Origin: Gammaproteobacteria bacterium
Lineage (GTDB): Bacteria; Pseudomonadota; Gammaproteobacteria; Thiohalomonadales; Thiohalomonadaceae
DNA length: 64,000 nt
NCBI GenBank assembly: GCA_003252455.1
Contig: QKED01000015.1
Location: forward strand, 1-64,000
Direction of reading: 5' to 3'
Every line of letters starts with the position of its first letter. Within the stretch, counting starts at the first letter, position 1. Shown one piece after another: positions 1,682 to 34,390 of this stretch. The position numbers and the translations under genes are program-made. The notes under the pieces were generated by a model. It ran no database searches. It saw only the letters and a program-made list of their open reading frames with translations, and was not told the DNA's origin.

Positions 1682-1712
1682 CACCTGTCGAAGCCACCGA
1701 GGTTGCCCACCG

Positions 1713-6735: not shown

Positions 6736-6765
6736 CCGCAGACCGACAAAAGTAGAAAGAACCGC

Positions 6766-13029: not shown

Positions 13030-13105
13030 GGCCACGCCACACAGCGCAGACCCTCTGCCCTCGGTCGCGCGTTGCGCCCAACCCGACACAACCCGTAGGA
13101 GACTC

Positions 13106-13600
13106 ATGGTGAACAGCGCGAGTACAGCGAGCGGAGTGTTCAACGCCTATGGTCTGGCCTTTCACCACTTCGGTCTGGCGGTGAAGCAGCCCAGCGCCGC
13201 CACCGCCTTCCTCGATGCCCTCGGCTATCGCCGTGGTGCGGCGATCTTCGACCCGCTACAGGGGGTCAATCTGGCCCTCTGCGAGCACCCGAGCATGCCC
13301 GCCGTAGAGCTGATCTGGCCCGGTGCCGGGGAGGGGCCCTCGCCCGTGGACAAGATCCTGGCCAAACGCGACAGTCAGCTCTACCACCTCTGCTTCACCT
13401 GCCCCGAACCGGAGCAGGCGTTGGCCCGGTTGCAGGCCGACGGGCATCTGCTCCTGCCAGCCGTGGAGGCGAAGGCGGCGGTGCTGTTCGGTGGGGTCGA
13501 GGTCTCCTTTCACTACGTGGTCGGGTTCGGGCTCATCGAGCTGATCCACTGTGACGCTGACCACCCAGGGCTCACCGCCGTAGCGGAGGCCGGAGCATGA
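13106..13600 (+). CDS. VOC-superfamily protein, methylmalonyl-CoA-epimerase-like
   Basis: A 164-residue vicinal-oxygen-chelate protein. Likely metal ligands are the His pair in AFHHFGLAV (20-21), the Glu in AVELIWP, the His in LYHLCF and the Glu in LIELIH, which together match the methylmalonyl-CoA epimerase layout. An excellent AGGAG lies just upstream of the ATG at 13106, and the stop overlaps the next start in ATGA, so it is translationally coupled to the FkbH-like gene. That pairing suggests that it acts on the same small acyl unit, for example as epimerase, lyase or binding partner. The precise reaction cannot be read from the sequence. Confidence 0.8.
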   Translation: MVNSASTASGVFNAYGLAFHHFGLAVKQPSAATAFLDALGYRRGAAIFDPLQGVNLALCEHPSMPAVELIWPGAGEGPSPVDKILAKRDSQLYHLCFTCPEPEQALARLQADGHLLLPAVEAKAAVLFGGVEVSFHYVVGFGLIELIHCDADHPGLTAVAEAGA

Positions 13601-15531
13601 GTGGCGCCCTCTACCGTGACCTGGGCTGGCTCCCGGCCACGCCGAAGAACTTCACCCGCTTGTGCGATGCGCTGCTCGAACGCGAGGGTGACCTGGGGCG
13701 GCGCATCGCCACTCTGGCCGGCTTCGCCCTCGATGACAACGCCCTGGCACGTCTGGCCAAGGTGATCGAGCAGGCACGTGCACGCGGCCTCGCCCTCGCC
13801 CCGCTGCAACCCCTGCGCCTCGGTCTGTTGAGCAACGCCACCACCGCACTACTGGTCCCGGCACTAGTGGCCACGGCGGCGCGCCATGGCTTCGCCCTGG
13901 AGTGTATCGAGGCGCCCTTCGGGCAGGTGCTCCAGTCGGCCCTCGACCCCGACTCCGCGTTCAATCGCGCCCGGCCCGACGTGGTGCTGCTCGCCCTCGA
14001 CTATCGCGCTCTGCCGCTCCTGCCGACGCCGGGTGACGCCGCACAGGCGCGTGCCACGCTGGAAGCGGCCCTGACCGAGCTGGAGGCGATCCGCACCGCC
14101 GTACGGCGCAACAGCGGCGCCTTCTGCCTGGTGCAGACCCTGGCCCGCCCACCCGAGGCGCCAGGGGGCTCCTTGGAGTCCTCCCTGCCGGGTAGCCTCG
14201 ACCACCTGGTGCGAGAGTTCAATCGCGAACTCACCCTGCGTCTGGCCACCTCCAGCGACCGTCTGCTCGATACCGCCGCGCTCGCCGAGACGGTGGGGCT
14301 TGCCGAGTGGCACGACCCGGCCTTTTGGCAGATGGCCAAACTCCCCTTCGCCGCCGCCTATCTACCGCTCTACGCCGACCACGTCATGCGCCGCCTCGCC
14401 GCCGCGCGCGGCAAGAGTCGGCGTGCCCTGGTGCTCGACCTCGATAACACGCTGTGGGGCGGGGTGATCGGTGACGACGGCCTGGAGGGTATCCACCTCG
14501 GTCAGGGGGACGCCCGTGGCGAGGCACACCTGGAGGTGCAGCAGACCGCGCTGGAGCTGCGCGGACGTGGGGTGGTGCTGGCGGTCTCCTCGAAAAACAG
14601 TGACACGGTGGCGCGACTGCCGTTTCGTGAGCACCCCGACATGCTGCTCAAGGAGGAGCATATCGCGGTGTTTCAGGCCAACTGGGAGGACAAGGCGAGC
14701 AACATCAGCGCCATCGCCAAGGCACTCTCCCTGGGCCTCGATGCCCTGGTGTTCCTCGACGACAACCCGGTCGAGCGCGCGCTGGTACGCCAACTGTTAC
14801 CGCAGGTGGCTGTCCCCGAGCTGCCGGAGAACCCCGCGCTCTATCGCCGCACCCTGCTCGCCGCCGGTTACTTCGAGGCCGATACCTTCTCCGAGGAGGA
14901 TCGCCGCCGTGCCGACTACTACCAGGCCAATGCCGAGCGCGTGGCACTCCAGGGTCAGGTGGACGACCTCGACGCCTATCTCGCCTCGCTACAGATGACC
15001 CTGACGGTACAGCCGTTCGATGCCACCGCACGGGCGCGTATCACCCAGCTGATCAACAAGTCCAACCAGTTCAATCTCACCACCCGCCGCTACACCGAGG
15101 AGCAGGTGAGCGCGTTGGAGCAGGACCCGGAGGTCTTCACCCTACAGGCGCGTCTACGCGACCGCTTCGGTGACAACGGGGTGATCGCCGTGCTCATCTG
15201 CCGCCGCCAGGGGAGTGCCTGGGCGATCGACACCTGGTTGATGAGTTGTCGCGTGCTCGGGCGCGGGGTCGAGCAGGCCCTGCTCGGCGAGCTATTGGTG
15301 CAGGCACGCGCCCAGGGCATCGACGCGCTGCATGGCTGTTATCGCCCCACCGAGCGCAACGGCATCGTCGCCGAACACTACGCCAAACTCGGCTTTACCC
15401 CCCTCGATGCGGGGTCCGATGGGGCGAGTTACTGGGTGCTGGAGACCCATGTCGAGTCGCACCAGCAGCCCCCCATCGCCATCCAACGGGGTGGCGCGCT
15501 GGCCGACCCGCCTGACTACCCGCATGACTAA
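13597..15531 (+). CDS. FkbH-like HAD-IIIC protein (glyceryl-carrier type)
   Basis: A 644-residue protein. The N-terminal about 260 residues resemble the SGNH-like region found before FkbH cores. The HAD phosphatase core begins with Asp281-Leu-Asp283-Asn-Thr in LVLDLDNTLWGG, followed by SSKN and the FLDDNPVER segment. The last about 150 residues form a GNAT-like domain (RFGDNGVIAVL, CRVLGRGVEQALL, YRPTERNG). Characterised FkbH homologues take 1,3-bisphosphoglycerate, load the glyceryl unit on a carrier protein and remove the phosphate. No free-standing ACP is encoded nearby, so the acceptor could be a carrier domain of the neighbouring megaenzymes, in particular the PCP of the adenylation-less last NRPS. 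It is coupled to the VOC gene by a 4-base overlap. Confidence 0.88.
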   Translation: MSGALYRDLGWLPATPKNFTRLCDALLEREGDLGRRIATLAGFALDDNALARLAKVIEQARARGLALAPLQPLRLGLLSNATTALLVPALVATAARHGFALECIEAPFGQVLQSALDPDSAFNRARPDVVLLALDYRALPLLPTPGDAAQARATLEAALTELEAIRTAVRRNSGAFCLVQTLARPPEAPGGSLESSLPGSLDHLVREFNRELTLRLATSSDRLLDTAALAETVGLAEWHDPAFWQMAKLPFAAAYLPLYADHVMRRLAAARGKSRRALVLDLDNTLWGGVIGDDGLEGIHLGQGDARGEAHLEVQQTALELRGRGVVLAVSSKNSDTVARLPFREHPDMLLKEEHIAVFQANWEDKASNISAIAKALSLGLDALVFLDDNPVERALVRQLLPQVAVPELPENPALYRRTLLAAGYFEADTFSEEDRRRADYYQANAERVALQGQVDDLDAYLASLQMTLTVQPFDATARARITQLINKSNQFNLTTRRYTEEQVSALEQDPEVFTLQARLRDRFGDNGVIAVLICRRQGSAWAIDTWLMSCRVLGRGVEQALLGELLVQARAQGIDALHGCYRPTERNGIVAEHYAKLGFTPLDAGSDGASYWVLETHVESHQQPPIAIQRGGALADPPDYPHD

Positions 15532-15574
15532 GAGTGCCCACGAGCGTGTTATGAGTGAAGGATCGAGTGACGCC

Positions 15575-18500
15575 ATGTCGATAGATGCGTTTATCCAGGC
15601 CGTGCAGCAGCAGGGGGTCAATCTCTGGCTCGATGAGCAGGGCCAGCTGCGCTTCAAGGCGCGCGCCGGGGCCATGACGCCGACCCTCCAGGGTGAACTG
15701 AAGGCGCGTAAGGGGGAGCTGGTCGCTTTCCTCGCTGCACAGGCGTCGGATGCGGCGTTGCCGACCCTTGAGCCAGACCCCGACAACCGCTATCAACCCT
15801 TCCCCCTCACCGATATCCAGGAGGCCTACTGGGTAGGGCGCAGCGGGCGCTTCGAGCTCAACACCCCGAGCCACTTCTATGACGAGTTCGCCGTGCAGGG
15901 GCTCGACCCCGAGCGCCTGGCGGAGAGTTGGCGCCACTTGGTGGAGCGCCACGAGGCGCTGCGCACCATCGTCTTGCCCAGTGGCGAGCAGCAGATCCTG
16001 GCCGCGCCGCCGCGCCTGGATGTGGCTTGCTTCGACCTGCGCGAGGGGCAACCCGATGCGTTGCAGCAGCACCTCGGCGCGCTGCGCCAAGAGATGCTGG
16101 TCACCCCCTTCGTGCCGCAGCGCTGGCCGCTGCACCGCCTCTGCCTGAGCCTGCTGCCGCAGGGCGAGGTGCGTATCCACCTGGCCCTCGACATGCTCAT
16201 CGCCGACTGGGGGAGCCTCGGGTTGCTGCTCGACGAGTGGGGCGAACTCTACCACCACCCCGAGCGACCGCTGGCGCCGCTGGCGCTCTCCTTCCGTGAC
16301 TACGTGCTGGCCGAACGGCGTCTACACGAGACGGCGCTCTATGCCCGTGCCAAGGCCTATTGGGAGGCGCGACTCGACCACCTGCCCGCGGCCCCGGAGT
16401 TGCCCCTGGCCCTCGACCCCGAGCAGCTTACACGCCCGATCTTCAGTAGCCGTCGCACCCTGCTCGATGCCACCACCTGGGGGCGCCTCAAGGAGGTGGC
16501 CAAGGGGCAGGGGGTGACCGCCACGGTGCTGCTGCTCGCGGCCTTCGCCGAGGTGTTGAGCCGCTGGAGCAAGCAACCACACTTCGCCATCAATCTGACC
16601 CTGTTCAACCGCCTGGAACTGGGTGATATGGCGCAGATCCACAAGCTGGTGGGCGACTTCACCAGCGTCAACCTGCTGGAGGTGGACAACCGCGCCGCCG
16701 ACGAGAGCCTGGCGCAGCGTACCCAGCGTCTGCAACAGCGCCTCTGGAGCGACATGGAGCAACGCGTCTACAGTGCGGTGCGGGTCATGCGGGCGCTGAG
16801 CGCACGGCGCCAGGGTGCGCCGGTGCGCATGCCGGTCATCTTCACCAGTGGTGTCGGCCTCGCCCAGCGCGACGAGTGGCTGGGTGAGCCGGTACACGGC
16901 TTCAGCCAGACCCCACAGGTGTGGCTCGATTGTCAGGTCGGGGAGAGCCAAGGGCGCCTGCGTGTGGTGTGGGATGTGGTCGACGACCTCTTCCCCGCCG
17001 GGATGGTCGACGCCATGTACGGCGCCTTCCTCGACCTGCTGCGCCGCCTGGCCATCGAGCCCGCGCTGTGGACGGCCACGAGCCCCGAGCTACTGCCCGA
17101 GGCGCAACGGGCGACGCGCGCGCGGGTCAATGCCACCGAGGCGCCGATCGCTGAGGCGCGCCTGCACGAGCTGTTCCTCGCCCAGGCCCGCCTGCACGGG
17201 GCACGCCCGGCGGTGATCACCCCGCTGCGCCGCCTCGACTACGCGGAACTCGCCCGCGAGGCCGCCCTGGTGGCGCACTGGCTGCACGACCTAGGGGTGG
17301 GGCGCAACCAGTTGGTGGGTGTGGTGATGGAGAAGGGGTGGGAGCAGGTGGTGGCGGTCCTCGGCGTGCAGATGGCCGGTGCGGCCTACGTGCCCATCGA
17401 CCCGGATCAGCCCACGGAGCGACTGCACTACATCCTCGACCAGGCGCAGGCGCGCGCCGTGCTCACCCAGCCTTGGGTCGAGACGGCGCACCCGTGGCCC
17501 ACGGAGTTGCCGCGCCTGGCCGTGGCCCCGCCCGGCGAGGGGACGCCGCAGGTGGTCGCCCCGCCCGCAGTGCAGGGAGAGGCGACCGATCTGGCCTACG
17601 TCATCTACACCTCCGGCTCCACCGGTAGCCCCAAAGGGGTGGTGATCGACCATCGCGGCGCGGTCAACACCGTGCTCGATATCAATCGCCGCTACGGCGT
17701 CGGCCCGGATGACCGGGTATTGGCCCTCTCGGCCCTCAACTTCGACCTCTCGGTCTACGATATCTTCGGCCTGCTCGCTGCGGGTGGCGCCCTGGTGATG
17801 CCGTTGGCCGAGGCGCGGCGCGACCCCTCGCAGTGGGCCGAACTGATGCAGGCGCATGGGGTGACCCTGTGGAACACGGTCCCGGCGCTCATGGCCATGT
17901 TGGTCGAGTATCTGGGCGCGACGCCGCTCGACGCACCGCTGGGTCTGGTGATGCTAAGCGGTGACTGGATCCCGCTGGAGCTGCCCGAGCGCATTCGGGC
18001 ACTCTTCCCCAATGCGCGCCGCTACAGTCTGGGTGGGGCCACCGAGGCCTCTATCTGGTCCAACCACTTCCCCATCGAGCGCATCGAGCCGCAGTGGAAG
18101 AGCATCCCCTACGGCGTACCCTTGACCAACCAGTACTTCCGCATCCTCAACGCGCGCCTGGACGACTGCCCCGACTGGGTCCCTGGGCAGCTCTGCATCG
18201 GTGGTGTCGGTGTGGCGCTCGGCTACTGGCGTGACGAGGAGCGGACCAACGCCCAGTTCTTCACCCACCCCCGCAGCGGCGAGCGCCTCTACAACACCGG
18301 CGACCTGGGGCGCTATCTGCCCGATGGCAACATCGAGTTCCTCGGGCGAGAGGATTTCCAGGTCAAGATCAGCGGTTATCGCATCGAACTCGGCGAGATC
18401 GAGAGTCAGCTGTTACGCCACCCGGCGGTCGCCTCCGGGGTGGTCGCGGCGGTGGGTGCGAGCCGCAGCGACAAACAACTGGTGGCCTACTACGTCCCCA

Positions 18501-19822
18501 CCGAGGCGGCGCGCACGGCGCAGCGACGCCAGAGCGAGGACCTGGCCTATATGCCCGAGGCGGCCCCCGGCCTGATCACCGAGGCCACCGAGCGCATGCA
18601 GTTTCGCCTCGCCCAGCCGGGACGCCTGCGCAGCCTGGAGGGGCGGGCCGAGGTCGCCCTGGAGGGGGCGGGGTTGGACGACGCCGCCTACCTGAGGCGC
18701 CAGAGCTTTCGCCACTTCCTCGACCAGCCGGTGGCGCTGCCAGAACTGGGACGGCTGCTCGGCCAGTTGCAGCCGCGCCAGTTCGAGCAGGGGGTGCTGC
18801 CCAAGTATCGCTACGGCTCGGCGGGTAGCCTCTACCCGGTGCAGTGTTACCTCTACATCAAGCCGGGGCGGGTCACCGGCCTCGCCGGTGGCTACTACTA
18901 TCACGACCCGCTCGCGCACCGCCTGCTACAGGTCGGTGCTGGCCCCGAGATGGAGCGGGCGCACTACGACGGCGGTAATCGCTTGATCTTCGACCAGGCC
19001 GCCTTCGTGCTCTTCCTGGTCGCCGACTACCGTGCCATAGAACCGCTCTACGGCACCCACGCACGCGACTTCTGCCTGCTGGAGGCGGGCTACATCAGCC
19101 AGCTGCTGATGATGGAGGCGGGGCAGTACCAGCTCGGGCTCTGCCCCATCGGGCTGATGAACTTCGCCCAGGCAGAGGCCCTGGCGCTCGACCCGCAGCA
19201 GGAGATGGTCCACAGCTTCCTCGGCGGCGCGATCGCCAGCGAGCAGATGGCGCGCCTGAGTCAGGCCAGCCCGGCACTCGAACCGCTGGCGCAGCAGTTG
19301 CGCAAACACCTCGCCGAGCACCTACCGGGCTATATGGTGCCGAGCGCCATCGTCGAACTCGATGCGATCCCGCTCAGTGCCAACGGCAAGGTCGACCGCA
19401 AGGCCCTGCCGCTGCCCGAGGTGCGGCGTACCCACGCCACCGCCCCGCGTGTCGAGCGAGCCCTGAGCGAGACCGAACAGCGTCTCGCCGGGGTGGTCGG
19501 GCGGGTACTCGGGGTGGCCAGTGTCGGCCTCGATGATCGCTTCTTCGACCTCGGTGCCGACTCCCTGGCGATGGTGCAGATCTACAACGCGGTGCAGGCC
19601 GAGTTCCGACGCGAGCTGACCATCGGTGACATCTTCGACCAGATGTGTGTCGCCGCCCTGGCCCCGCTGATCGATGCGGCCACGCCGCTGGCCGAGGTGG
19701 ACACGGCGTCCGACGATGGCGAGGCGTCACTCGACGCCGCCGATATCGACCGCCTCAGCGCCAACCTGGAGAACCTCAGTGACGACGAGGTCGAGCGGCT
19801 GCTCGCCCAGTTCGGGATTTAA
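15575..19822 (+). CDS. NRPS: TubC docking-Cy-A(Cys)-Ox-PCP, thiazole-forming module
   Basis: About 1415 residues from MSIDAFIQ, the typical start of a TubC_N docking domain; in-frame ATGs at 15524 and 15551 are alternatives, the first overlapping the FkbH gene. The heterocyclization domain starts at FPLTDIQEAYWVGR (near 75) and has the DxxxxDxxS signature DMLIADWGS (near 205), with FTSG and FSQTPQVWLD later. The adenylation domain (about 530-960 and 1230-1285) has YTSGSTGSPKG and my reading of its specificity code is D-L-Y-N-M-S-L-I-W-K, close to the cysteine code. An FMN-dependent McbC/EpoB-type oxidase (KYRYGSAGSLYPVQ and onward, about 975-1225) is inserted between A8 and A10. Ser1330 in LGADSL is the PCP attachment site. 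Expected role: condense, cyclize and oxidise cysteine to a thiazole. The C-terminal LSDDEVERLLAQF looks like a docking helix. Confidence 0.93.
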   Translation: MSIDAFIQAVQQQGVNLWLDEQGQLRFKARAGAMTPTLQGELKARKGELVAFLAAQASDAALPTLEPDPDNRYQPFPLTDIQEAYWVGRSGRFELNTPSHFYDEFAVQGLDPERLAESWRHLVERHEALRTIVLPSGEQQILAAPPRLDVACFDLREGQPDALQQHLGALRQEMLVTPFVPQRWPLHRLCLSLLPQGEVRIHLALDMLIADWGSLGLLLDEWGELYHHPERPLAPLALSFRDYVLAERRLHETALYARAKAYWEARLDHLPAAPELPLALDPEQLTRPIFSSRRTLLDATTWGRLKEVAKGQGVTATVLLLAAFAEVLSRWSKQPHFAINLTLFNRLELGDMAQIHKLVGDFTSVNLLEVDNRAADESLAQRTQRLQQRLWSDMEQRVYSAVRVMRALSARRQGAPVRMPVIFTSGVGLAQRDEWLGEPVHGFSQTPQVWLDCQVGESQGRLRVVWDVVDDLFPAGMVDAMYGAFLDLLRRLAIEPALWTATSPELLPEAQRATRARVNATEAPIAEARLHELFLAQARLHGARPAVITPLRRLDYAELAREAALVAHWLHDLGVGRNQLVGVVMEKGWEQVVAVLGVQMAGAAYVPIDPDQPTERLHYILDQAQARAVLTQPWVETAHPWPTELPRLAVAPPGEGTPQVVAPPAVQGEATDLAYVIYTSGSTGSPKGVVIDHRGAVNTVLDINRRYGVGPDDRVLALSALNFDLSVYDIFGLLAAGGALVMPLAEARRDPSQWAELMQAHGVTLWNTVPALMAMLVEYLGATPLDAPLGLVMLSGDWIPLELPERIRALFPNARRYSLGGATEASIWSNHFPIERIEPQWKSIPYGVPLTNQYFRILNARLDDCPDWVPGQLCIGGVGVALGYWRDEERTNAQFFTHPRSGERLYNTGDLGRYLPDGNIEFLGREDFQVKISGYRIELGEIESQLLRHPAVASGVVAAVGASRSDKQLVAYYVPTEAARTAQRRQSEDLAYMPEAAPGLITEATERMQFRLAQPGRLRSLEGRAEVALEGAGLDDAAYLRRQSFRHFLDQPVALPELGRLLGQLQPRQFEQGVLPKYRYGSAGSLYPVQCYLYIKPGRVTGLAGGYYYHDPLAHRLLQVGAGPEMERAHYDGGNRLIFDQAAFVLFLVADYRAIEPLYGTHARDFCLLEAGYISQLLMMEAGQYQLGLCPIGLMNFAQAEALALDPQQEMVHSFLGGAIASEQMARLSQASPALEPLAQQLRKHLAEHLPGYMVPSAIVELDAIPLSANGKVDRKALPLPEVRRTHATAPRVERALSETEQRLAGVVGRVLGVASVGLDDRFFDLGADSLAMVQIYNAVQAEFRRELTIGDIFDQMCVAALAPLIDAATPLAEVDTASDDGEASLDAADIDRLSANLENLSDDEVERLLAQFGI

Positions 19823-19846
19823 ACGGCATTCGATGAGAGAGAGCGC

Positions 19847-22690
19847 ATGAACCAACCCACGCTATCGGCCGAACGCAAGGCCCTGCTGGCCAAACTGCTG
19901 AAAGAGAAGGCACAGACCTACCACTTCCCGCTCTCTTACGGACAGCAGGGGCTCTGGGTGATCTACAACCAAGACCCCAGCAACACCGCCTACAACATGG
20001 CCTGGGCGGTGACCGTGGAGGGGGCGTTGCTGGTCGAGACCCTGCGCGCGGCGCTGGCCGCCCTGGTGGTGCGGCATCCGGCCCTACGTACCACCCTGGA
20101 GCAGGTGGACGGCGAGGCGCGCCAGTGCGTCCAGCCGCAGGGTGACTACCACTGGACGCTGCATGAGACGGGCGACGAGGCCGCACTCTGGGAGGCACTG
20201 CGGGCGAGCTATCGACGCCCCTTCGACATCACCCGTGACGCGGTGCTGCGTGTCGACCTGGCGCGCGTCAGCCCCACACGCCACCTGTTGTTGCTGACCA
20301 TGCACCACATCTTCGGCGACGCCGAGTCGCTCGACCTGTTGGGCGCTGAGCTGTTCGAGGTCTATCGCGCCAGGTGCCAGGGTGAGAGCCCGCGCCTGGC
20401 CCCGCTCAACAGCACCTATGCCGACTTCGTGCGTGCCGAGGCAGCGATGGTCGAGGGGGTCGAGGGTGAGCGGATGCGCGCCTACTGGTTGGCGCGTCTA
20501 GGCGGGGAGGTGCCGACCCTACGCCTGCCCCTCGACCATCCACGCCCGGCGCAGCCGAGCTACAAGGGCGGGGCATTCAGCTTCACCCTCCCCACGTCGC
20601 TCAGTTGCCGCCTCAAGGTCATGGCCAAGGAGGAGAACAGCACCCTCTTCACGCTCTTCCTCTCGGCCCTGCAGATCCTCCTGCAGCGCTACAGCGGCGA
20701 GAGCGAGGTGTGGATCGGCTCCCCCTCCTCGGTCAACCGCCACCACCCGAAGTACGCCGACATCGTCGGCTATCTGGCCAACTCGGTGGTGCTGCGTGGC
20801 ACCCCCGGCGACGGTCGCGAGGCGGGCTTCATCGACCTGGTGCGAGAGAATCGTCCGCGCGTGCTGGAGGCGATCCAGCACGCCACCTACCCCTTCCCGC
20901 TGCTGGTCAAGTCGCTGCTGCACAAGCGTGAGGCGGGTCTCTCGCCGCTGTTTCAGGTGATGCTCGACTACAAGGGGGCGGACTTTCTCGCCCTGGCGGG
21001 GCAGGGGGGCGACGCGCTACGTCTGACCCGAGTCGATTTCGCGCAGATGGAGGGGCAGTTCGACCTCACCCTCAACATCATCGAAGGGGAGGCGTTCCTC
21101 TGTACCCTCTACTATGTCGAGGCACTCTTCGAGCGCGACACCATCGAGCAGATGGCGCACCACCTGGAACGGCTCCTGAGTGCCGCGGTCGAGGCACCAC
21201 ACCTGCCCCACGCCGAGCTCCCCTGGATCGAGGCGCACGAGCGTGCACAGCTCGACGCCTGGGGTGAGGCGGCGTTCGACAGCGACTGGATCAGTGAGCT
21301 GCCGCTGGCCGACGAGGTGCCTGGCTTGACCACCATCCTGGAGGTGGGTGGCACGGGTCGGGTGGTGCTGCTCGACCCGGTGGGGCGTCTGTTACCGCAG
21401 GGGGTGAGTGGTGAGGTGCATCTCGACCACCCCATGCTGCCGCGTCTCCTGGAGGCCTATCCCGATCTGGCGGCGAGCTATCTGCACGAGGTCACCCTCG
21501 AAGGGGCGGTGACCCGGCTGGTGCGCAGCGGGCGCCGCGCACGCTGGGGCCACGATGGTCGCTTGCAGTTCGTTGCCGAGCCGGTCGAGGCCGCCACAGC
21601 GGTCGTGGCGGGTCAGGAGGGTGCGCCGAACTACCTCAACCCACGCGACGATATCGAGTTCCGTCTGGCGCGCCTCTGGGAGGCGCTGCTCGACCACGCC
21701 CCAGTGAGCGTGGTGGACGACTTCTTCGCCATCGGTGGTGACTCGCTGCTGGCCATTCGCCTGCTGTTCAACATCCAGAAGGAGTTCGCGCTGGAGGTGC
21801 CGATGCACGCCCTGTTCGAACACAAGCGCCTGGAGCAGTTGGCGGCACTGATCCGTAAGGGTGGAAAGCACAGCTACAGACCGTTGGTCTGCCTCGATGC
21901 ACGGGGTGAGAAGCGCCCGGTGTTCTTTGTGCATGCCTCCGGTGGCACCGCCTTCGACTACCTGGAGATCGCCAACCTGATGGGCGGCGAACGGCCGTTC
22001 TACGCCTTTCAGCCGCGCGGCATCGAGATGGGCGACGCGTTCCACGACTCGATCGAGCAGATGGCCATCGACTACGTCGCTGCGGTGCGCGAGGTCCAGC
22101 CGCACGGCCCCTACCTGCTCGGCGGTTGGTCGTTCGGCGCCACCGTCGCCTTCGAGATGGCGCGCCTGCTCGAAAACAGCGGTGAGCGTGTCATCGAGCT
22201 GCTGATGATCGACACCCCGGCACCGACCGCCGACGTCTGCAAACAGGACGACTTCGAGTTTCTCATGGACCGTCTGCCCCACTACCACGGGGTCAGTCTC
22301 GACCAGCTCGATCTCCAGGACGATACGGAGAAGAAGGTCGCCTACCTGTTGCAGGAGGTGAAGCTCTCCGGTCTCTTCACCCCCGATATCGACCAGGCCT
22401 ACGCCCACCACTGGTTCCGCATGTACAAGCACCACAACGCCACCGTGGCCGACTACCACCCGGCGCACAGCGTCGCCGCGCCCATCGACTTTCTCAAGCC
22501 CTCCGAGAGCATCCCGTTCGATGAACAGATGGGCAACCCGAGTCACGTCTGGGCGCGCTACACCCGCGGTGAGTACCGGGTATTGGACGCCCCTGGTAAC
22601 CACTTCACCATGGTCTCACCAGTGAATAATCCGGCGCTGGCACAGATGGTCAAAGAGAGTTTGGCGCGTGCCGAGGCACACCGCTCTTAG
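19847..22690 (+). CDS. NRPS termination module: C-(adenylation remnant)-PCP-TE
   Basis: A 947-residue protein. The condensation domain begins near FPLSYGQQGLW; its catalytic motif is HHIFGDAES (His153-His154, Asp158), with Ala where HHxxxDG has Gly. Residues about 480-590 are a short piece resembling the A5-A7 region of an adenylation domain (VLLDPVGRLLPQGVSGEVHL), but the ATP loop, substrate pocket and catalytic lysine regions are missing. The PCP serine is Ser633 in IGGDSLLAI. A type I thioesterase follows with Ser762 in GGWSFGA and the His in PGNHFTM. It starts 24 bases after the previous gene. Without its own adenylation domain the PCP must be charged in trans, stay empty, or pass the chain to a free nucleophile. 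Confidence 0.9.
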   Translation: MNQPTLSAERKALLAKLLKEKAQTYHFPLSYGQQGLWVIYNQDPSNTAYNMAWAVTVEGALLVETLRAALAALVVRHPALRTTLEQVDGEARQCVQPQGDYHWTLHETGDEAALWEALRASYRRPFDITRDAVLRVDLARVSPTRHLLLLTMHHIFGDAESLDLLGAELFEVYRARCQGESPRLAPLNSTYADFVRAEAAMVEGVEGERMRAYWLARLGGEVPTLRLPLDHPRPAQPSYKGGAFSFTLPTSLSCRLKVMAKEENSTLFTLFLSALQILLQRYSGESEVWIGSPSSVNRHHPKYADIVGYLANSVVLRGTPGDGREAGFIDLVRENRPRVLEAIQHATYPFPLLVKSLLHKREAGLSPLFQVMLDYKGADFLALAGQGGDALRLTRVDFAQMEGQFDLTLNIIEGEAFLCTLYYVEALFERDTIEQMAHHLERLLSAAVEAPHLPHAELPWIEAHERAQLDAWGEAAFDSDWISELPLADEVPGLTTILEVGGTGRVVLLDPVGRLLPQGVSGEVHLDHPMLPRLLEAYPDLAASYLHEVTLEGAVTRLVRSGRRARWGHDGRLQFVAEPVEAATAVVAGQEGAPNYLNPRDDIEFRLARLWEALLDHAPVSVVDDFFAIGGDSLLAIRLLFNIQKEFALEVPMHALFEHKRLEQLAALIRKGGKHSYRPLVCLDARGEKRPVFFVHASGGTAFDYLEIANLMGGERPFYAFQPRGIEMGDAFHDSIEQMAIDYVAAVREVQPHGPYLLGGWSFGATVAFEMARLLENSGERVIELLMIDTPAPTADVCKQDDFEFLMDRLPHYHGVSLDQLDLQDDTEKKVAYLLQEVKLSGLFTPDIDQAYAHHWFRMYKHHNATVADYHPAHSVAAPIDFLKPSESIPFDEQMGNPSHVWARYTRGEYRVLDAPGNHFTMVSPVNNPALAQMVKESLARAEAHRS

Positions 22691-22731
22691 CCCTTGTGGC
22701 AGATACACCCAGGCCCCCCCGAGAGGTTGAG

Positions 22732-24504
22732 ATGATAGTTTTAGGTTGTAACGGTTTCAGTAAATCCGCGGCGTTCTTCGGCGCCTATTTCGGCAGTGTC
22801 GGCAACGACCGCAACCTGCTGATGGGCCACGATGCCAGTGCCGCGCTGTTCAAGGATGGTGTACTGATCGCCGCCGCCGAGGAGGAGCGCTTCAACCGCA
22901 TCAAGAAGAGCCCCGACTTTCCCGAGCAGGCGGTGCGCTACTGCCTCCAAGAGGGGGGCGTGAGTGTCGAGGATGTGGACCTGGTGGCCATCCCCTGGGA
23001 CTGCAACGAGGCGTGGATCAGCGGTATCTTCAGTCACATCTTCCGCGGTGAGGATAAGCTGGAGAAGAAGGTCGAGCTCTACGAGAAGCTCAAGACCATG
23101 TACTACCAGGTCGCCTCCCACGAGACGGTGATCCAGGACTTCAACTGCCGCATGGGCACCGACTTCGGCCCGGAGCGCTTCGTCTTCGTGCCGCACCACC
23201 TGGCGCACATGATGGCGGGCTTCTACGTCAGCGACCTGCGTCCGAGTGCCTTTCTGGTCACCGATGGGCGCGGTGAGGCCTTCTCGGCGAGCCTCGGCGA
23301 GATCGATCGCGACGGCTTTCATATCTTCGACAACGTCTCGATCCCCAACTCCCTCGGTGTGCTCTACCGCAAGTTCACCCGCTACCTCGGGTTTACCCCC
23401 AATAGCGACGAGTACAAAGTGATGGCCCTCGCCCCCTTCGTCAAACAGGACCCAGGCTACGACGTAGAGGCATTCATCGAGCTGCTGCCCGAGGGGCGTT
23501 ACCAGCTCAAGGTGCCGGACGATGTAGACGGTCACACCGACTACTACCGCTTCTTCGAGGCCTACTTCGGCCCGCGTAGTGAGAGCACCGACCACAAGAT
23601 GGCCTGGTTCGTTCAGCACCTCACCGAACTGGCGACCCTGCACCAGGTGCGCTACCTGGAGCAGCGCAGCGCGCACGATCACCTCTTCATCGAGGGGGGC
23701 GTGGCGCTCAACTGCGTCAACAACGGCAAGCTGCTGAAGCAGTCGCGCTTCAAGGATATCGCCGTCAGCTTCGCCGCCAGCGACACCGGTGTGGCCATCG
23801 GCGCGGCCTTCTATCAGGTCTACCAGACGAAGGCGTTCACCCCGCACACCATCACCCCCTATCTGGGGCCGGAGTACAGCGACGAGGTGATGCGCCAGGC
23901 CCTGGAGGCGCGCTCCGATGCGCTCCGTTTCGAGCGTCTGGAGGGGGCGCAACTGCGCGAGCGTCTGGTGGGCTACCTGACCGAGAAGAAGATCCTCGGC
24001 TGGTTCCAGGGGCGCATGGAGTCGGGCCCGCGTGCGCTCGGCAACCGCAGCATCCTCGCCAGTCCCCAGTTCGACGACATGAAGGACATCATCAACGCCA
24101 AGGTGAAGTATCGCGAGGCGTTCCGCCCCTTCGCCGGGGTGATGGTGGAGGAGGCGGCGCCGACCTATTTCGAGCTCGGCAAGAAGCAGACCTCGCCCTA
24201 CATGACTTTCGTCTTCGACGTGAAGCCGGATATGGCCGCGCGGCTGCCGAGCGCGCTGCACTTCGATGACACCTCACGCCTGCAGACCGTCACCGCGGCG
24301 CAGAACGCCAAGCTCTACGCCCTGCTGACCGCGTTCGGCGAGAAGACCGGTACCCCTTGTTTGATCAACACCTCGTTCAACGTCGCCGGTGAGCCGGTGG
24401 TCTGCTCACCGCGCGACGCGGTCAACACCTTCCTCAACAGCGGTATCGATGTACTGGTGCTCGGGGATTACGTGGCCCACAAGATCGAACCCCCGAGTGC
24501 CTGA
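22732..24504 (+). CDS. O-carbamoyltransferase (NodU/CmcH family)
   Basis: About 590 residues from ATG 22732, which follows GAGAGG at 22721-22726; an upstream GTG at 22696 has no comparable site. Carbamoyltransferases of this family transfer carbamoyl from carbamoyl phosphate, via carbamoyl-AMP, to a hydroxyl. The N-terminal Kae1/YrdC-like part has GHDASAALF and the His-rich HHLAHMM (His155, His156, His159) that binds metal in the family. The C-terminal domain has GWFQGRMESGPRALGNRS near 423 and NTSFNVAGEPV. Its position directly after the releasing thioesterase makes it a probable tailoring enzyme for the NRPS/PKS product; a hydroxyl on a glycerol-derived unit would be a natural target. Confidence 0.92.
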   Translation: MIVLGCNGFSKSAAFFGAYFGSVGNDRNLLMGHDASAALFKDGVLIAAAEEERFNRIKKSPDFPEQAVRYCLQEGGVSVEDVDLVAIPWDCNEAWISGIFSHIFRGEDKLEKKVELYEKLKTMYYQVASHETVIQDFNCRMGTDFGPERFVFVPHHLAHMMAGFYVSDLRPSAFLVTDGRGEAFSASLGEIDRDGFHIFDNVSIPNSLGVLYRKFTRYLGFTPNSDEYKVMALAPFVKQDPGYDVEAFIELLPEGRYQLKVPDDVDGHTDYYRFFEAYFGPRSESTDHKMAWFVQHLTELATLHQVRYLEQRSAHDHLFIEGGVALNCVNNGKLLKQSRFKDIAVSFAASDTGVAIGAAFYQVYQTKAFTPHTITPYLGPEYSDEVMRQALEARSDALRFERLEGAQLRERLVGYLTEKKILGWFQGRMESGPRALGNRSILASPQFDDMKDIINAKVKYREAFRPFAGVMVEEAAPTYFELGKKQTSPYMTFVFDVKPDMAARLPSALHFDDTSRLQTVTAAQNAKLYALLTAFGEKTGTPCLINTSFNVAGEPVVCSPRDAVNTFLNSGIDVLVLGDYVAHKIEPPSA

Positions 24505-28710: not shown

Positions 28711-28748
28711 CGGCACGCCGCCCCTAGGCGGCGTGCCGCCCCATTTTT
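28711..28748 (+). terminator. rho-independent terminator after the sulfatase gene
   Basis: A perfect 12-bp GC-rich stem (28711-28722 with 28727-28738) around the loop CCTA, followed by a short T5 run (28744-28748). It separates the sulfatase from the sulfotransferase and suggests that the genes downstream have their own promoter or rely on read-through. Confidence 0.75.
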
Positions 28749-28790
28749 GCCGTGGCCAATGCGGCCATGGAGAGAGTATTGGTAACACGC

Positions 28791-29459
28791 ATGTTGAAAG
28801 TGATCGAACTGGGTTTTGGGCGTTCCGGCACCATGTCGCTCAAGGCCGCGCTGGAGCAGCTCGGGTTTGGCCCCTGTTACCACTTTTCCGATATGTTTCA
28901 TCGGCCTGGCGACCCGGCGGTCTGGGGGGCGGCGCATCGAGGTGAGGCGGTGGATTGGGAGCGGCTCTTCCAGGGCTACCAGTCCACTGTCTACGTCACA
29001 CCGGGGATGGATTTTACCCCCCTGCTGGAGCGCTACCCCGAGGCCAAGCTGATCCTCACCACCCGTGACCCGGTGAGTTGGCACCGCAGCTATCTGGACA
29101 CCGTCTACAAATACAACCACCTGACCCCGTCGCTGCGCCTCAAGCTCAAGCTCGCGGGCCTCTTCAAACCCTTTCCGCGCCAGCTCTACGCCACCTGGGA
29201 CCTACAGGAGCGCACACTGTTCAACGGCGTCTTTGCCGGGCGTTTCACGGATCAGGACTTCGTCGTCAAGACCTATCTAGAGCAGATCGAGGCGATCAAG
29301 GCCAAGGCCCCGGCGGGGCGCCTGCTGGTCTACAACATCAAGGAGGGGTGGGAGACGCTCTGCCCGCATCTCGGCGTGCCGATCCCCGACACCCCCTTTC
29401 CCCATGCCAACGACACCGCCTCGTTTATCGAGTGGCGGACCGGTAAGCGAAAAAAGTGA
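28791..29459 (+). CDS. sulfotransferase-family P-loop protein
   Basis: About 222 residues from ATG 28791. The N terminus MLKVIELGFGRSGTMSLK carries the PAPS 5'-phosphosulfate loop (GFGRSGT) of sulfotransferases, followed by the ALEQLGFGPCYH segment typical of the Sulfotransfer_4 group. LILTTRDPVSWHRSY is the 3'-phosphate-binding region. Other in-frame starts exist at GTG 28752, ATG 28767 and TTG 28779; the TTG has GGAGAG just upstream, but the family N terminus fits 28791. It may sulfate the PKS/NRPS product or a lipid or sugar. It lies directly after the sulfatase terminator. Confidence 0.8.
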   Translation: MLKVIELGFGRSGTMSLKAALEQLGFGPCYHFSDMFHRPGDPAVWGAAHRGEAVDWERLFQGYQSTVYVTPGMDFTPLLERYPEAKLILTTRDPVSWHRSYLDTVYKYNHLTPSLRLKLKLAGLFKPFPRQLYATWDLQERTLFNGVFAGRFTDQDFVVKTYLEQIEAIKAKAPAGRLLVYNIKEGWETLCPHLGVPIPDTPFPHANDTASFIEWRTGKRKK

Positions 29460-29527: not shown

Positions 29528-29890
29528 ATGGTCGCACTCGGAGCCCTGAAGGCCGGGGCCCTTGCCTTCGCCAATCCGCTGGTAGCGCTCGTCGCCGTCG
29601 CAGGGGGTCTCTGGACCTGGGATCGACGCGACCAGCGGCGCTATCGCAGTGACCCCGCGCTCGCCGAGCGTCTCGCCCGTGTCGAGGCCGAACTCGCCCA
29701 GGCCACGGCGCAGTTGACCGAAATGCAGGCGGTGGCGACGCCGAAGCCGGCCACCGCCCGTGGCGCCGAGGTGGTGAGTCGTGGCCCGCGTGACGAGGCC
29801 AAGGCCCACCTGCTGCTCAAGGTGGTCGAACAGAACGAACGTCTGCGCCACCCGCTGGGTGACGCCGACCCCAGCCACCCCGCCCTCTAA
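29528..29890 (+). CDS. small membrane-anchored coiled-coil protein, unknown function
   Basis: A 120-residue protein I do not recognise. Residues 1-30 are hydrophobic and small-residue rich, followed by an Arg/Asp-rich stretch WDRRDQRRYRSD and a heptad-like helix LAERLARVEAELAQATAQLTEMQ (in two parts) typical of a coiled coil. The tail is polar. GGAGAG lies nine or so bases before the ATG. It is immediately upstream of the MamK-like gene and may anchor or organise the filament at a membrane. Its N terminus resembles those of the two P-type ATPases of this locus. Confidence 0.75.
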   Translation: MVALGALKAGALAFANPLVALVAVAGGLWTWDRRDQRRYRSDPALAERLARVEAELAQATAQLTEMQAVATPKPATARGAEVVSRGPRDEAKAHLLLKVVEQNERLRHPLGDADPSHPAL

Positions 29891-29923
29891 CCTCATACCA
29901 TCGCATAGGGAGCCGCCCTGACC

Positions 29924-30928
29924 ATGACCTACTCCGTCGGCATCGATCTCGGTACCAGCCGTTCCGCCATCGTCACCTCCATGGGCACACGTGCCAGCGT
30001 CGCCTCGTGCGTGGGCTACCCCAAGGATGTGATCGCCCGTAAGCGTGTCGGCCACGAGCCACTGCTCGGTGAGGCGGCCCTGGCCCACCGTATGGCGCTG
30101 GAGCTGGTCTACCCACTCGGCGACGGGGTGGTGAAGGAGGGCGAGCGCGCCGGTGAGGCGACCCGGGCGATCCTCGCCCATCTGCTCGACCAGGCGCTGC
30201 CCGAACGCGACACCGAGCGCGCCATCTTCGCCGCCATCGGCGTCCCGGCGCAGGCCAGCGTGCAGAGCTGTCAGCGCCTGCTCGCGCTCTGTGAGGGTCT
30301 GTTCACCAAGGTGCTGATCGTCAGTGAGCCCTTCGCCGTCGCCTACGCACTGGACCGTTTCGACGAGGCCCTCATCGTCGACATCGGCGCGGGTACTGTG
30401 GATATCTGTCGGATGCACGGTGTGATGCCCGAGGCAGACGACCAGGTGACCCTGAATACCGCCGGGAATTTTCTCGACGGGGTGATCGAGCGGGTGATCC
30501 TGGCCAAATACCCCGAGGTGCAGCTCACCGCGCAGATCATCCGCCGCATCAAAGAGAAGTACGGCTATGTCAGCGAAAAGAGCGACCCCGTGGAGGTGAC
30601 CCTGACCAAACACGGCGTACCGGCGCGCTACGACATCACCACCGAGCTGCGCGAGGCCTGCCTCGAACTGACCCGCCCCATCGCCCAAGCGGTGCAGGGG
30701 TTGGTGGGGAGCTTCGACGCCGACTTTCAGCACCTGCTGCGCGACAACATCATCATCGCCGGTGGCGGCTCGCGCCTGAAGGGGATCGACCTGGCGTTGG
30801 AGAGGAGCCTCGCCGCCTATGGTGGGGCCCGCGCCCTCTGCGTCGAGGACGCCGAGTTTTGTGGTGCCCAAGGGACACTGAAGATGTGCCTGGAGATGCC
30901 CGAAGAGTATTGGCAGCGCATCGATTGA
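29924..30928 (+). CDS. MamK-like bacterial actin
   Basis: A 334-residue actin/Hsp70-fold ATPase. The phosphate-1 loop is GIDLGTSRSA (6-15), the connect/phosphate-2 region is VDIGAGTVDIC (near 151), and the adenosine motif is IIAGGGSRLKGI. From memory of MamK sequences, VGYPKDVI, YPLGDGV, AIGVPAQAS, VSEPFAVAYALD, DDQVTLNTAGNFLD and PEEYWQ are all close matches, much closer than to MreB, ParM or DnaK. MamK polymerises into filaments that align magnetosomes. No magnetosome gene (mamA, B, E, M, O, P, Q) lies in the window. The flanking membrane proteins suggest that this filament positions some membrane or metal-related structure. Confidence 0.85.
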   Translation: MTYSVGIDLGTSRSAIVTSMGTRASVASCVGYPKDVIARKRVGHEPLLGEAALAHRMALELVYPLGDGVVKEGERAGEATRAILAHLLDQALPERDTERAIFAAIGVPAQASVQSCQRLLALCEGLFTKVLIVSEPFAVAYALDRFDEALIVDIGAGTVDICRMHGVMPEADDQVTLNTAGNFLDGVIERVILAKYPEVQLTAQIIRRIKEKYGYVSEKSDPVEVTLTKHGVPARYDITTELREACLELTRPIAQAVQGLVGSFDADFQHLLRDNIIIAGGGSRLKGIDLALERSLAAYGGARALCVEDAEFCGAQGTLKMCLEMPEEYWQRID

Positions 30929-30965
30929 TACTGACCGACCCGTGCGAACATTCCGAGGAGTTGAG

Positions 30966-31517
30966 ATGAGCGAGAGCCCACAGCAGGACCACACGCACAC
31001 CCACGAGGCCGTCGAGGAGGAGGTGTACGAGCCGACCCTCGATGAGCGCACGGAGAGTGCCAACCGGCATATCCGCGACTACACCCTCGGTGCCATGGCC
31101 ATCGGCCTGGTGCCGATCCCCTTCGTCGACCTGGCCGCGCTCTTCTCGCTGGAGCTGAAGTTGCTGCACAGCCTGGCACGCACCTTCGATATCGAGTTCC
31201 GTGCCGATGCCGGGCGTGCGGCCATCGGCAGTCTGGTCAGCGGCTCGCTCTCGGTGGCGGCGGCCCCGGCAATCGCGACCACGCTGGGTAAGCTGATCCC
31301 AGGGGTCGGTACCACGGTCGCTGCCGGTTCACAGATGTTCCTCAACGGGGCGCTCACCTATGCCCTCGGCAAGGTGTTCATGCAGCACTTCTCTTCGGGG
31401 GGGACCTTCCTCACCTTCGACCCGGAGATGGTGCGTGACTACTTCACCGCCCAGGTGGAGGAGGGGAAGCGGGTCGCGAGCCAGCTGCACAAGGAGCGCA
31501 AGGCGAAAGGGAGCTGA
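30966..31517 (+). CDS. DUF697-like membrane protein
   Basis: About 183 residues from ATG 30966, with GAGGAG upstream; the frame is open from 30942. A charged N terminus carries a His-rich HTHTHE patch. Two hydrophobic segments follow: GAMAIGLVPIPFVDLAALF and a Gly/Ala-rich stretch with LIPGVGTTVAAG, then LTYALGKVFMQHF. This pattern, with its PIP and PGVGT turns, matches DUF697/YcjF-type proteins, several of which associate with membrane or GTPase systems. It follows the MamK-like gene by 37 bases and precedes the phosphopantetheinyl transferase. Function unknown; I infer that it works with the actin-like protein. Confidence 0.75.
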   Translation: MSESPQQDHTHTHEAVEEEVYEPTLDERTESANRHIRDYTLGAMAIGLVPIPFVDLAALFSLELKLLHSLARTFDIEFRADAGRAAIGSLVSGSLSVAAAPAIATTLGKLIPGVGTTVAAGSQMFLNGALTYALGKVFMQHFSSGGTFLTFDPEMVRDYFTAQVEEGKRVASQLHKERKAKGS

Positions 31518-31541
31518 GACGGGGCGAACCGGGTGCAGCCC

Positions 31542-32261
31542 ATGCCGTCGGTGGAGCTCTGGTATCTGGAGCGCTGCGAGTCGGTGCCGTCGGCCACGGC
31601 GCGCCAGGTGAGTCTGCTGGATGCCACCGAGCGTGCGCACATGGGCCGCTTGGTGCACCCGGCGGACCGCGACAGCTACCTCTACGCCCACCTGCTGTTG
31701 CGGCTGGTGGTGGCGCGCGCGTGTGACCGTCCGGCCGCTGCACTGTGCTTTCGCCCAGGCGCCAACGGTCGCCCCGAACTCGTCGATGGGCCGGGACGCG
31801 AGGAGTTGGATTTCAACCTCTCGCACACCCGCGGTGGGGTGGCGGTGGCGCTGGGCAGGGGGACGCGGGTCGGGGTCGATATGGAGGCGCAGGCGCGGGT
31901 CATCGAGGTCGAACCGCTGCTGCCCATCCTCTGCAGCGCGGCCGAACGACGGTGGTTAGAGGCGCTGCCCGTGGCCCACAGGCGAGCGGCCTTCATGCGC
32001 CTCTGGGTGACCAAAGAGGCCTATCTCAAGGGGCTCGGTTGCGGACTCGGACGAGAACCGAGTAGCGTCGAGTGTCACGCCGACGGGGAGGGCCGCCTCT
32101 GCTGTCGACCCGTGGCGACACGGGCACCAGTGGGGGATGGGGGGGGCGACTGGCGGGTCGACCTCCACACCACCCCTGGCGGTTATCTGCTCGCGCTGGC
32201 CCATGAGGGCCTGGCGAACAGTGTGCCGCACTCGGCCGAGGGTCTGTTGCAGGGGATCTGA
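31542..32261 (+). CDS. 4'-phosphopantetheinyl transferase, Sfp type
   Basis: About 239 residues. Sfp-family enzymes move phosphopantetheine from CoA to the conserved serine of carrier domains. The Mg-binding motif is VGVDMEAQARV and the second signature is LWVTKEAYLKGLG; FNLSHTRGGVAVAL is the usual preceding element. The start ATG 31542 has no strong ribosome-binding site. This enzyme should activate the four carrier domains encoded upstream (Ser897, Ser2024, Ser1330 and Ser633 of their proteins). Its presence downstream of the MamK-like and DUF697-like genes argues that those genes belong to the same functional locus as the PKS/NRPS. Confidence 0.92.
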   Translation: MPSVELWYLERCESVPSATARQVSLLDATERAHMGRLVHPADRDSYLYAHLLLRLVVARACDRPAAALCFRPGANGRPELVDGPGREELDFNLSHTRGGVAVALGRGTRVGVDMEAQARVIEVEPLLPILCSAAERRWLEALPVAHRRAAFMRLWVTKEAYLKGLGCGLGREPSSVECHADGEGRLCCRPVATRAPVGDGGGDWRVDLHTTPGGYLLALAHEGLANSVPHSAEGLLQGI

Positions 32262-32333: not shown

Positions 32334-32459
32334 ATGGAGATGAGACGCTGTGCATCGGCACTCGCCCGCTACTGTGGTGTCGAGGGGATGGGCATGACCC
32401 CGCACGCCACGCGTCTGGCCCTTGTTCTGCCCCGCTCACGGCGAGGAGTCACCCCTTGA
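32334..32459 (+). CDS. possible 41-residue small protein coupled to the degenerate ATPase
   Basis: ATG 32334 opens a 41-codon frame beginning MEMRRCASALARYCGVEG and ending in a TGA that overlaps the TTG start of the next gene. AGGGGGCGAGGG precedes it. The product is basic, with two cysteines and no recognised domain. It could be a real small protein, a translational leader for the downstream gene, or chance. Confidence 0.3.
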   Translation: MEMRRCASALARYCGVEGMGMTPHATRLALVLPRSRRGVTP

Positions 32460-34390
32460 TAGCACTTGGTTACGCCGCTGGGGCCTTGGTCGGGCGTCGC
32501 CTGCTGCGTTGGCGCGAGCGGCGATTGGTCGATTCGATCCGCGCCGCGGAGCGGGTCGCCCGTGAGCAGCGCGAGAGCCGCAATGCGGTCGGTGTCGGCG
32601 GACTCGCCACCCTGGGCTGTACCCTGGGCCACTTCTATCCGCCGCTGTTGCCGCTCAATCTCGTCCTGGTCGGCTATGGGATGGAGCCCGCCGTGCGCCG
32701 TGCCGAGGTGGCATTGCGTGAGCGGCGCGAGGTGCAGGCCGATGGCTACGCCTCGCTCGTCACCCTCGTCTGCCTGCTCGGCGAGCAGTACTTTGCCGCG
32801 GCACTCAATCTCACCCTCTATCACATGGGGAGCGCCCTCCTCACCCAGGGGCGTGAGCGGCTGGCCGAGCAGGCCATGCCGCAGCTGCTGCGAAATGCCC
32901 CCGAGGTGTGGACGCTCGGCGAGGGTGGCGAGATGGCCACGCCGCTCACCGAGGTCACCCAGGGCGCCCCCTTGGTGCTGCGTGCCGGCGAACTACTCTG
33001 GGTCGAGGCCGAGGTCGTGGCCGGGGAGGGGGTCTTCGCGCCCCCGGAGGAGGGCGCCTCGCAGCAGGCCTACCCGGCCGCGCCGGGGATGCGTCTGGTG
33101 GTGGGGACGCTGTTGCTGCGTGGTCGTCTGGTGCTACGCGCCAGCCAGAGCGGTGTCGCCAGGCTGGACCGGATGCTGGAGGGTCTGCTGCAGCAGACCG
33201 CCGAGCGCCCGAGTCTCTTGGAGCAGCGTCTCGCTCAGCTCACCCGCGCGAGCTATCTGCCGGTACTCGGTCTGAGCGTCGTCGGCCTCCCGCTGGCGGG
33301 GTTGGTACCGGTCACCGCACTGCTGTTCAACGCACCACAGAACACGCTGGGGGCCTTGATGAGCCGGCAGCGCATGGAGATCCTACAGCGTGCCGCCGAG
33401 CACGGATTGTGGATCCGCGACGCCCGCCTCCTGGAGGGGGTCGAGCGGCTCGACTGCCTACTCATCGACCCGCGCGGCACGCTGACCGCGAGCCGCCCCA
33501 CCCTGGAGGGTGTCGAGTGCTATGCACACTTCGACCGCGACCAGATCCTGCAGATGGCCCTGGATGCGCCGGAGCCGCTCCCCCTGCCGGAGGCCGAGAC
33601 ACTGCGCGAGGCGCTCGCAGGGTGGGGCGAAGGGCTCGATGGCGTACGGGCGCACCTGGGTGACCGCGCCTACCTGCAGCGTCACGGCATTCGCCCGCCC
33701 CCCGAGGGGCCGCGCACGCCCACCCCACGGCCCGGGGAGCGGCGGCTGTTCGTGGTGCTGGAGGCCGAGGTGGTGGGGGCGGTGCGCCTACACTACCCCC
33801 TACGCGAACAGGCCCTCGCGCTGCTCGAACAACTGCGTGAACGGGGTGTGCGGCGGCTGGAGCTGGTCACCGCCGAGGGACGCGAGGGGTGGGCCGAGCT
33901 GCTCCTCACCCTCCCGCTGAGTGGGCTGCACGCCGAACTCGGACCGGTGCAGAGGGCCGAATTGGTCGAGCGTCTCAAGGGTGAGGGGTATCGGGTCGGC
34001 TACCTGGGTAACCACTTCGCCGATCTACCCGCCATGCGCCAGGCCGACCTGTCGATCTGCCTCGACGAGGCGGACGAGGCGCTGCGCCACAGTGCCGACC
34101 TGGTCGTTGAGGCGTCAGGCTTGGCACACCTCCCGCAACTGCGTGACGCCGCCCTGGCCCTGCAGTTGCGCCAGACCGTGATCCCCGGCTTCTGGTTCAG
34201 CTACGTGCTCTTCAATAGCGTCGGTGTGGTGCTGCTCCACTTCACCCCGGCCTTCTCAGCGCTACTCCTCGCTGCGACCTTCGGCTCGGCCTACCGCCTG
34301 ATCCAGCTCCCCTCACGAGCCGCCGTCGAGGAGGAGCACGCCGAGGGTGGGGTCGTGCTCGACCAGGGGCACACCTTCACACTCACCTGA
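32456..34390 (+). CDS. degenerate P-type ATPase-like protein (catalytic motifs lost)
   Basis: A 644-residue protein with the overall P1B-like layout: N-terminal hydrophobic and Arg-rich segment, paired membrane helices, actuator-like region, more helices, a split HAD-like domain and final helices. The phosphorylation motif DKTGT reads DPRGT (Asp338-Pro-Arg), the TGES actuator loop is missing (EEGASQQAYP in that area), and the hinge GDGxND reads LGNHFAD. It therefore should not pump by the normal cycle. The open frame is intact over nearly 2 kb, so it is probably a maintained pseudoenzyme, not decay. TTG 32456 is chosen as start because GAGGAG lies eight bases upstream. It may partner the active-looking ATPase at 1713-3800 or act as a structural or sensing protein. 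Confidence 0.8.
   Translation: MIALGYAAGALVGRRLLRWRERRLVDSIRAAERVAREQRESRNAVGVGGLATLGCTLGHFYPPLLPLNLVLVGYGMEPAVRRAEVALRERREVQADGYASLVTLVCLLGEQYFAAALNLTLYHMGSALLTQGRERLAEQAMPQLLRNAPEVWTLGEGGEMATPLTEVTQGAPLVLRAGELLWVEAEVVAGEGVFAPPEEGASQQAYPAAPGMRLVVGTLLLRGRLVLRASQSGVARLDRMLEGLLQQTAERPSLLEQRLAQLTRASYLPVLGLSVVGLPLAGLVPVTALLFNAPQNTLGALMSRQRMEILQRAAEHGLWIRDARLLEGVERLDCLLIDPRGTLTASRPTLEGVECYAHFDRDQILQMALDAPEPLPLPEAETLREALAGWGEGLDGVRAHLGDRAYLQRHGIRPPPEGPRTPTPRPGERRLFVVLEAEVVGAVRLHYPLREQALALLEQLRERGVRRLELVTAEGREGWAELLLTLPLSGLHAELGPVQRAELVERLKGEGYRVGYLGNHFADLPAMRQADLSICLDEADEALRHSADLVVEASGLAHLPQLRDAALALQLRQTVIPGFWFSYVLFNSVGVVLLHFTPAFSALLLAATFGSAYRLIQLPSRAAVEEEHAEGGVVLDQGHTFTLT

Follow-up and report, generated by a model that had tools for sequence, protein, structure and literature searches.

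Gene organization of the locus

We studied a stretch of 64,000 nucleotides (hereafter the window) from contig QKED01000015.1 of a gammaproteobacterium belonging to the family Thiohalomonadaceae. All the genes listed in a preliminary description of this DNA were present where it had placed them: an actin-like gene, flanked by genes for a membrane/coiled-coil protein and a DUF697 protein, lies between a sulfotransferase and an Sfp-type transferase. The P-type ATPase-like gene downstream of the Sfp-type transferase (32456-34390) was absent from that list. The features considered here are the following:

28711..28738, + strand: terminator-like hairpin between an upstream sulfatase and the actin unit (12-pair stem with 11 G-C, T-rich tail; a pattern match only)
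28752..29459, + strand: sulfotransferase (Sulfotransfer_4, Pfam 183 bits), opening the unit
29528..29890, + strand: putative Bbp partner with an N-terminal membrane helix, a coiled coil and the C-terminal motif KAHLLLKVVEQNERLR (partner profile)
29924..30928, + strand: Bbp actin-like ATPase, MamK-related, 334 aa, intact (tree support 100/100; 56-66% identity to other Bbp)
30942..31517, + strand: DUF697 membrane protein (Pfam 48 bits, cut-off 27.7)
31533..32261, + strand: Sfp/AcpS-type 4'-phosphopantetheinyl transferase (Pfam ACPS 54.5 bits)
32456..34390, + strand: catalytically dead P-type ATPase of a CPC-less subfamily (TGE replaced by EEG, DKTGT by DPRGT and GDGxND by GNHFAD)
1713..3800, + strand: P-type ATPase of the CPC-less subfamily whose catalytic motifs are intact, located within the PKS/NRPS cluster (TIGR01525 389 bits, above cut-off; ORF listed as 1497-3800, likely start 1713)
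143..24504, + strand: PKS/NRPS cluster enclosing the preceding gene (Pfam), with aromatic lyase, AMP-ligase/ADH/ACP, PKS, FkbH-like, NRPS, NRPS-TE and carbamoyltransferase genes

The five ORFs from the sulfotransferase to the Sfp-type transferase are separated by intergenic gaps of 13-68 bases. The strong terminator-like stem was found only before the sulfotransferase; between the genes up to 34700 the + strand showed no other hairpin like it, so that a single transcription unit from the sulfotransferase through the downstream genes is plausible.

The actin-like protein belongs to the Bbp family

The resemblance of the window actin to MamK, pointed out in the preliminary description, was far beyond chance: it scored 252 bits against the solved MamK (5ljw), versus 135 against BeeR (8r2n), a related bacterial actin that is farther from it than MamK, and 35 against MreB. 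Identification as MamK itself did not hold. The NCBIfam MamK model gave 380 bits, slightly below its cut-off of 400; the magnetosome-cluster MamK proteins of magnetotactic relatives reached 451-460 bits and the Bbp proteins 380-398. Other family models scored far lower (Pfam MreB 61.7, ParM_N 14.2 and HSP70 8.6 bits; NCBIfam BeeR 208, with a cut-off of 530), and the protein belongs to the MamK side of the actin superfamily, being neither ParM nor Hsp70. An origin as a plasmid segregation actin was rejected, with no plasmid hits and the weak ParM score, and so was a viral origin, with no relative in viral contigs.

In a tree of 70 rows the window actin was nested with 100/100 support in a clade of 35 rows, typical of giant and filamentous sulfur bacteria, that includes proteins of Desulfonema, Thiomargarita, Beggiatoa and Thioploca, apart from the MamK of magnetotactic relatives; it formed the first branch of this clade, on a rather long branch. 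Since this is the clade that Geelhoed et al. 2023 (PMC10580974) named Bbp ('big bacteria protein'), the window actin is, by sequence and tree, a further member of an already described family that is sister to MamK. These authors described Bbp in giant cable bacteria, Thiomargarita, Beggiatoa, Desulfonema and others, with some hosts of ordinary cell size and no function reported; in Ca. Electrothrix gigas the bbp neighbors were a hypothetical protein and a Kelch-like protein, and no common partner was described (PMC10580974).

Among sampled genomes of the host's class we found three closer relatives (56-63% identity), and a scan of 84,980 species genomes yielded 34 loci at 56-66% identity. These came from Beggiatoa, Thiomargarita, Thioploca, Parabeggiatoa, Desulfonema magnum, other Desulfobacterota, Zetaproteobacteria and a marine symbiont, and most of the hosts are of the kind already described for Bbp. 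One genome (G135; loci L026 and L024) carried a Bbp (60%) plus a separate MamK-type actin (39%). The active-site segments of the window actin are conserved relative to the MamK structure, and its predicted model, the confident actin part of the read-through chain described below, superposed on the MamK filament subunit with a TMt of 0.95. We infer that it is a filament-forming ATPase.

The window host differs from the Bbp hosts described before in coming from a family with magnetotactic members. In two genomes of this family (G004 and G008) MamK lies beside MamE-, MamH- and MamF-like genes, names that were read by eye from the translations. Two MamK copies per genome were seen in two magnetotactic members of the family (L007, L008, L009). 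As the preliminary description had noted, no other magnetosome gene lies near the window actin; genome-wide, the host yielded no second MamK, no MamH relative and, with MamE queries, only generic HtrA-type proteases and no magnetochrome-type MamE, which leaves no sign of a magnetosome island among the genes searched for.

A conserved membrane protein encoded upstream of bbp

The gene at 29528-29890 encodes a 120-aa protein that has a single membrane helix close to its N-terminus, followed by a coiled coil, and ends in an NxxLR motif. A first BLAST with this small protein gave no matches, and its kinship became visible by motif and profile. In 22 bbp loci a small upstream protein has this layout of membrane helix and coiled coil and carries a C-terminal stretch resembling KLAMLKRLVEDNIxLR; its gene is directly upstream of bbp in most of them and about 2.8 kb upstream in L044. 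A profile built from these 22 partners of other genomes, with the window left out, added five loci (L053, L054, L055, L061 and L084), so that the partner was found upstream of bbp in 27 of the 35 other loci. Searched against the 524 ORFs of the window, the same profile had a sole match, 29528-29890 (E 1.5e-4). Four positions, G27, N103, L106 and R107, were invariant in the partner alignment (20 rows). Of the eight loci without a partner, three (L041, L050, L063) had little upstream sequence; the others were four from Desulfobacterota for which the upstream region was available (L042, L049, L052, L056) and L048. By motif and profile, these comparisons show the small upstream protein to be a conserved putative partner of Bbp. 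The 'hypothetical protein' beside bbp in Ca. Electrothrix gigas (PMC10580974) may be the same partner.

As the partner and actin genes are in one frame, they were modeled as a single chain read through the intervening stops. The motif helix was predicted with a pLDDT of about 90 in this chain, with disorder on both sides, and of about 80 in the partner alone; the chain itself imposes proximity on the two parts. The model thus gives a weak hint that the motif helix may bind the actin.

A closely related known system is the magnetosome chain with MamK and MamJ/MamY. Both systems have an actin fold, at about 37-42% identity between MamK and the window actin, and, as an idea, both would have a filament bound to membranes via separate proteins. 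They differ in that no magnetosome genes were found in the window host, whose actin falls under the MamK model cut-off, and in that the Bbp partner has no recognized match to magnetosome proteins.

Bbp co-occurs with DUF697 proteins and CPC-less P-type ATPases

Of 36 genomes searched, 32, including that of the host, held relatives of the DUF697 protein, often in several copies. Among 369 sampled genomes of the host's class, DUF697 matches with E below 1e-24 occurred in nine. The window also has two P-type ATPases in which other residues stand in place of the CPC metal motif: the catalytic motifs are intact in the copy at 1713-3800 and lost in that at 32456-34390. A profile built on the segment where the motif is missing detected such CPC-less ATPases in 8 of the 369 genomes, clearly set apart from all others, and in seven of the nine DUF697 genomes (p 2e-12). 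Bbp itself occurred in four of the 369, and all four had both DUF697 (Fisher p 2e-7) and a CPC-less ATPase (p 9e-8); they represent four families, although these are few genomes and Fisher statistics ignore phylogeny. No such enrichment was seen in genomes that had a MamK-type actin and lacked Bbp (CPC-less ATPase in 1 of 11). Three related genomes (G159, G195, G347) had the ATPase and DUF697 without Bbp. At the level of gene content, these counts show Bbp to be associated genome-wide with DUF697 proteins and CPC-less ATPases.

Physical linkage was less frequent: the ATPase was adjacent to bbp in 8 of 35 loci and DUF697 in 6 of 35, several of them from close relatives. The ATPases beside bbp in L051 and L058-L064 belong to the subfamily with the CPC metal motif replaced. 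The nearest relatives of the dead ATPase of the window included the ATPase adjoining bbp in L051, where this homologue class immediately precedes the partner gene and bbp, as well as an ATPase of the magnetotactic genome G008. SPFH, acyltransferase-like (PF03417) and periplasmic binding proteins also recur near bbp in one group of genomes (L064:441-8799, L059, L060, L062, L067); such neighbors (L051, L057-L067) were set aside, being absent from the window and found mostly in close relatives.

The P1B heavy-metal ATPases (TIGR01525) are the closest reference for these enzymes: the copy at 1713-3800 passes the general subfamily cut-off and the domain order is equal. They differ in that the CPC/CPx metal site of the P1B type is absent from both window copies (replaced in CPC-less ATPases, as in ESNFGYNIR and NAPQNTLGA) and in that the 32456 copy is without catalytic motifs. 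Ferrosome (fez) systems are iron compartments with a P1B-type ATPase; no fez gene was identified among the genes described here. In L127 and L129 (also L181:1289-3940) a His-rich linker joins DUF697 to a CPC-type P1B ATPase in one fusion protein, and in the first two the fusion adjoins a cation diffusion facilitator gene. Five giant or mat-forming sulfur bacteria (G385, G392, G394, G396, G407) had 10-18 P-type ATPase matches per genome, many of them CPC-less. Among the papers searched, none treated DUF697 together with a P-type ATPase.

PKS/NRPS genes in the neighborhood

The association of the actin with PKS/NRPS genes proposed in the preliminary description is real in the window, and as a general property of bbp it was rejected: such genes occur at only 2 of about 36 bbp loci, the window and L026 (NRPS plus an Sfp-type gene). 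Of 55 loci with CPC-less ATPases, about 9 (including L183, L187, L189 and L199) had PKS, NRPS, carbamoyltransferase or sulfotransferase genes as neighbors, versus 2 of 40 controls, both weak, a difference that is not significant (p 0.11); the two control matches (L038 and L069) resemble an aminotransferase and an ADH and not PKS/NRPS. Because the link is direct at so few bbp loci and runs more often via the ATPase family, it is suggestive only, as is the recurrence of PKS/NRPS genes near CPC-less ATPases. In a member of the Mariprofundaceae (L183:407-12365), three CPC-less ATPases are accompanied by genes for a carbamoyltransferase and for a sulfotransferase that are similar to the tailoring genes in the window cluster; in L179:9151-14271 and in L199, from the magnetotactic G008, the neighbors of CPC-less ATPases are an FkbH-like gene and an NRPS-PKS gene. 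The third CPC-less ATPase of the host genome (L100:4426-6678) has no PKS/NRPS gene within the surrounding 18 kb.

A proposed role for the Bbp cytoskeleton

We propose, with a probability of about one half, that the partner tethers a Bbp filament to a membrane and that this filament serves a membrane system with DUF697 proteins and CPC-less ATPases. The actin would form a filament as an ATPase; the partner would be inserted in the membrane by its one helix, its coiled coil reaching into the cytoplasm, and its conserved C-terminal helix, with the NxxLR motif, would hold the filament. A partner that is both membrane-inserted and holding the filament would therefore tie the filament to the membrane. 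The filament would then position or segregate a membrane system containing the DUF697 protein and the CPC-less, heavy-metal-like P-type ATPases; one of the latter, the dead pseudo-ATPase (32456-34390), could act as an adaptor or regulator. Both the tethering by the motif and any part played in placing a compartment, or in dealing with what the adjacent PKS/NRPS cluster makes, are inferred. A compartment containing metal or metabolites, as suggested in the preliminary description, is a possibility that the co-occurrence of Bbp with heavy-metal-type P-type ATPases and DUF697 across genomes supports indirectly.

In the strongest competing account, Bbp would be a cytoskeleton of the envelope serving cell size or shape, anchored by the partner at the plasma membrane with no compartment involved, the ATPases and DUF697 co-occurring for ecological reasons. 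This is a serious though somewhat unlikely alternative. It fits the spread of Bbp in giant or filamentous bacteria, reported previously (PMC10580974) and seen in our genome scan, the plain one-helix anchor, and the many bbp loci consisting of just partner and actin amid housekeeping genes; however, ordinary-size bacteria are among the Bbp hosts (PMC10580974), and the association with DUF697 and CPC-less ATPases extends over four families of the class and is local in L051, L057-L066 and the window.

A more specific form of the membrane-system proposal, which we regard as improbable as it stands, is that Bbp and its partner are the positioning cytoskeleton of an undescribed intracellular membrane compartment of sulfur bacteria; its membrane would carry DUF697 proteins and an expanded family of CPC-less P-type ATPases, and the ATPases would load it with an uncommon cation or with a product of PKS/NRPS or lipid type. 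Slightly less probable again is that the actin organizes a PKS/NRPS product, with sulfotransferase, actin, DUF697 protein, transferase and ATPase forming one operon for making, exporting or storing a compound, which could for instance be pumped through a membrane. The co-directional genes with their tight gaps and single terminator, the CPC-less ATPase inside the cluster, the similar neighbors of bbp in L026 and the excess of such genes near CPC-less ATPases argue for it; yet the rarity of PKS/NRPS genes at bbp loci and the p value of 0.11 under the strict control count argue against it, and giant sulfur bacteria may be generally rich in such clusters. Lastly, a stray MamK captured from a magnetosome island is very improbable: two genomes of the host's family do carry MamK in magnetosome clusters, but the window actin falls in Bbp, apart from those copies, and the queries for a second MamK, MamE and MamH found no mam genes in the host genome.

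Returning to the proposal of a membrane-tethered Bbp filament, Bbp itself was already known (PMC10580974), and what is added here is a conserved membrane partner, a link to DUF697 proteins and a link to CPC-less ATPases. The partner motif and the genome-level links offer concrete candidates for testing, by binding and localization, what the Bbp cytoskeleton holds. As the host is a relative of magnetotactic bacteria in which magnetosome genes were not found, it helps to separate the functions of Bbp from those of MamK.
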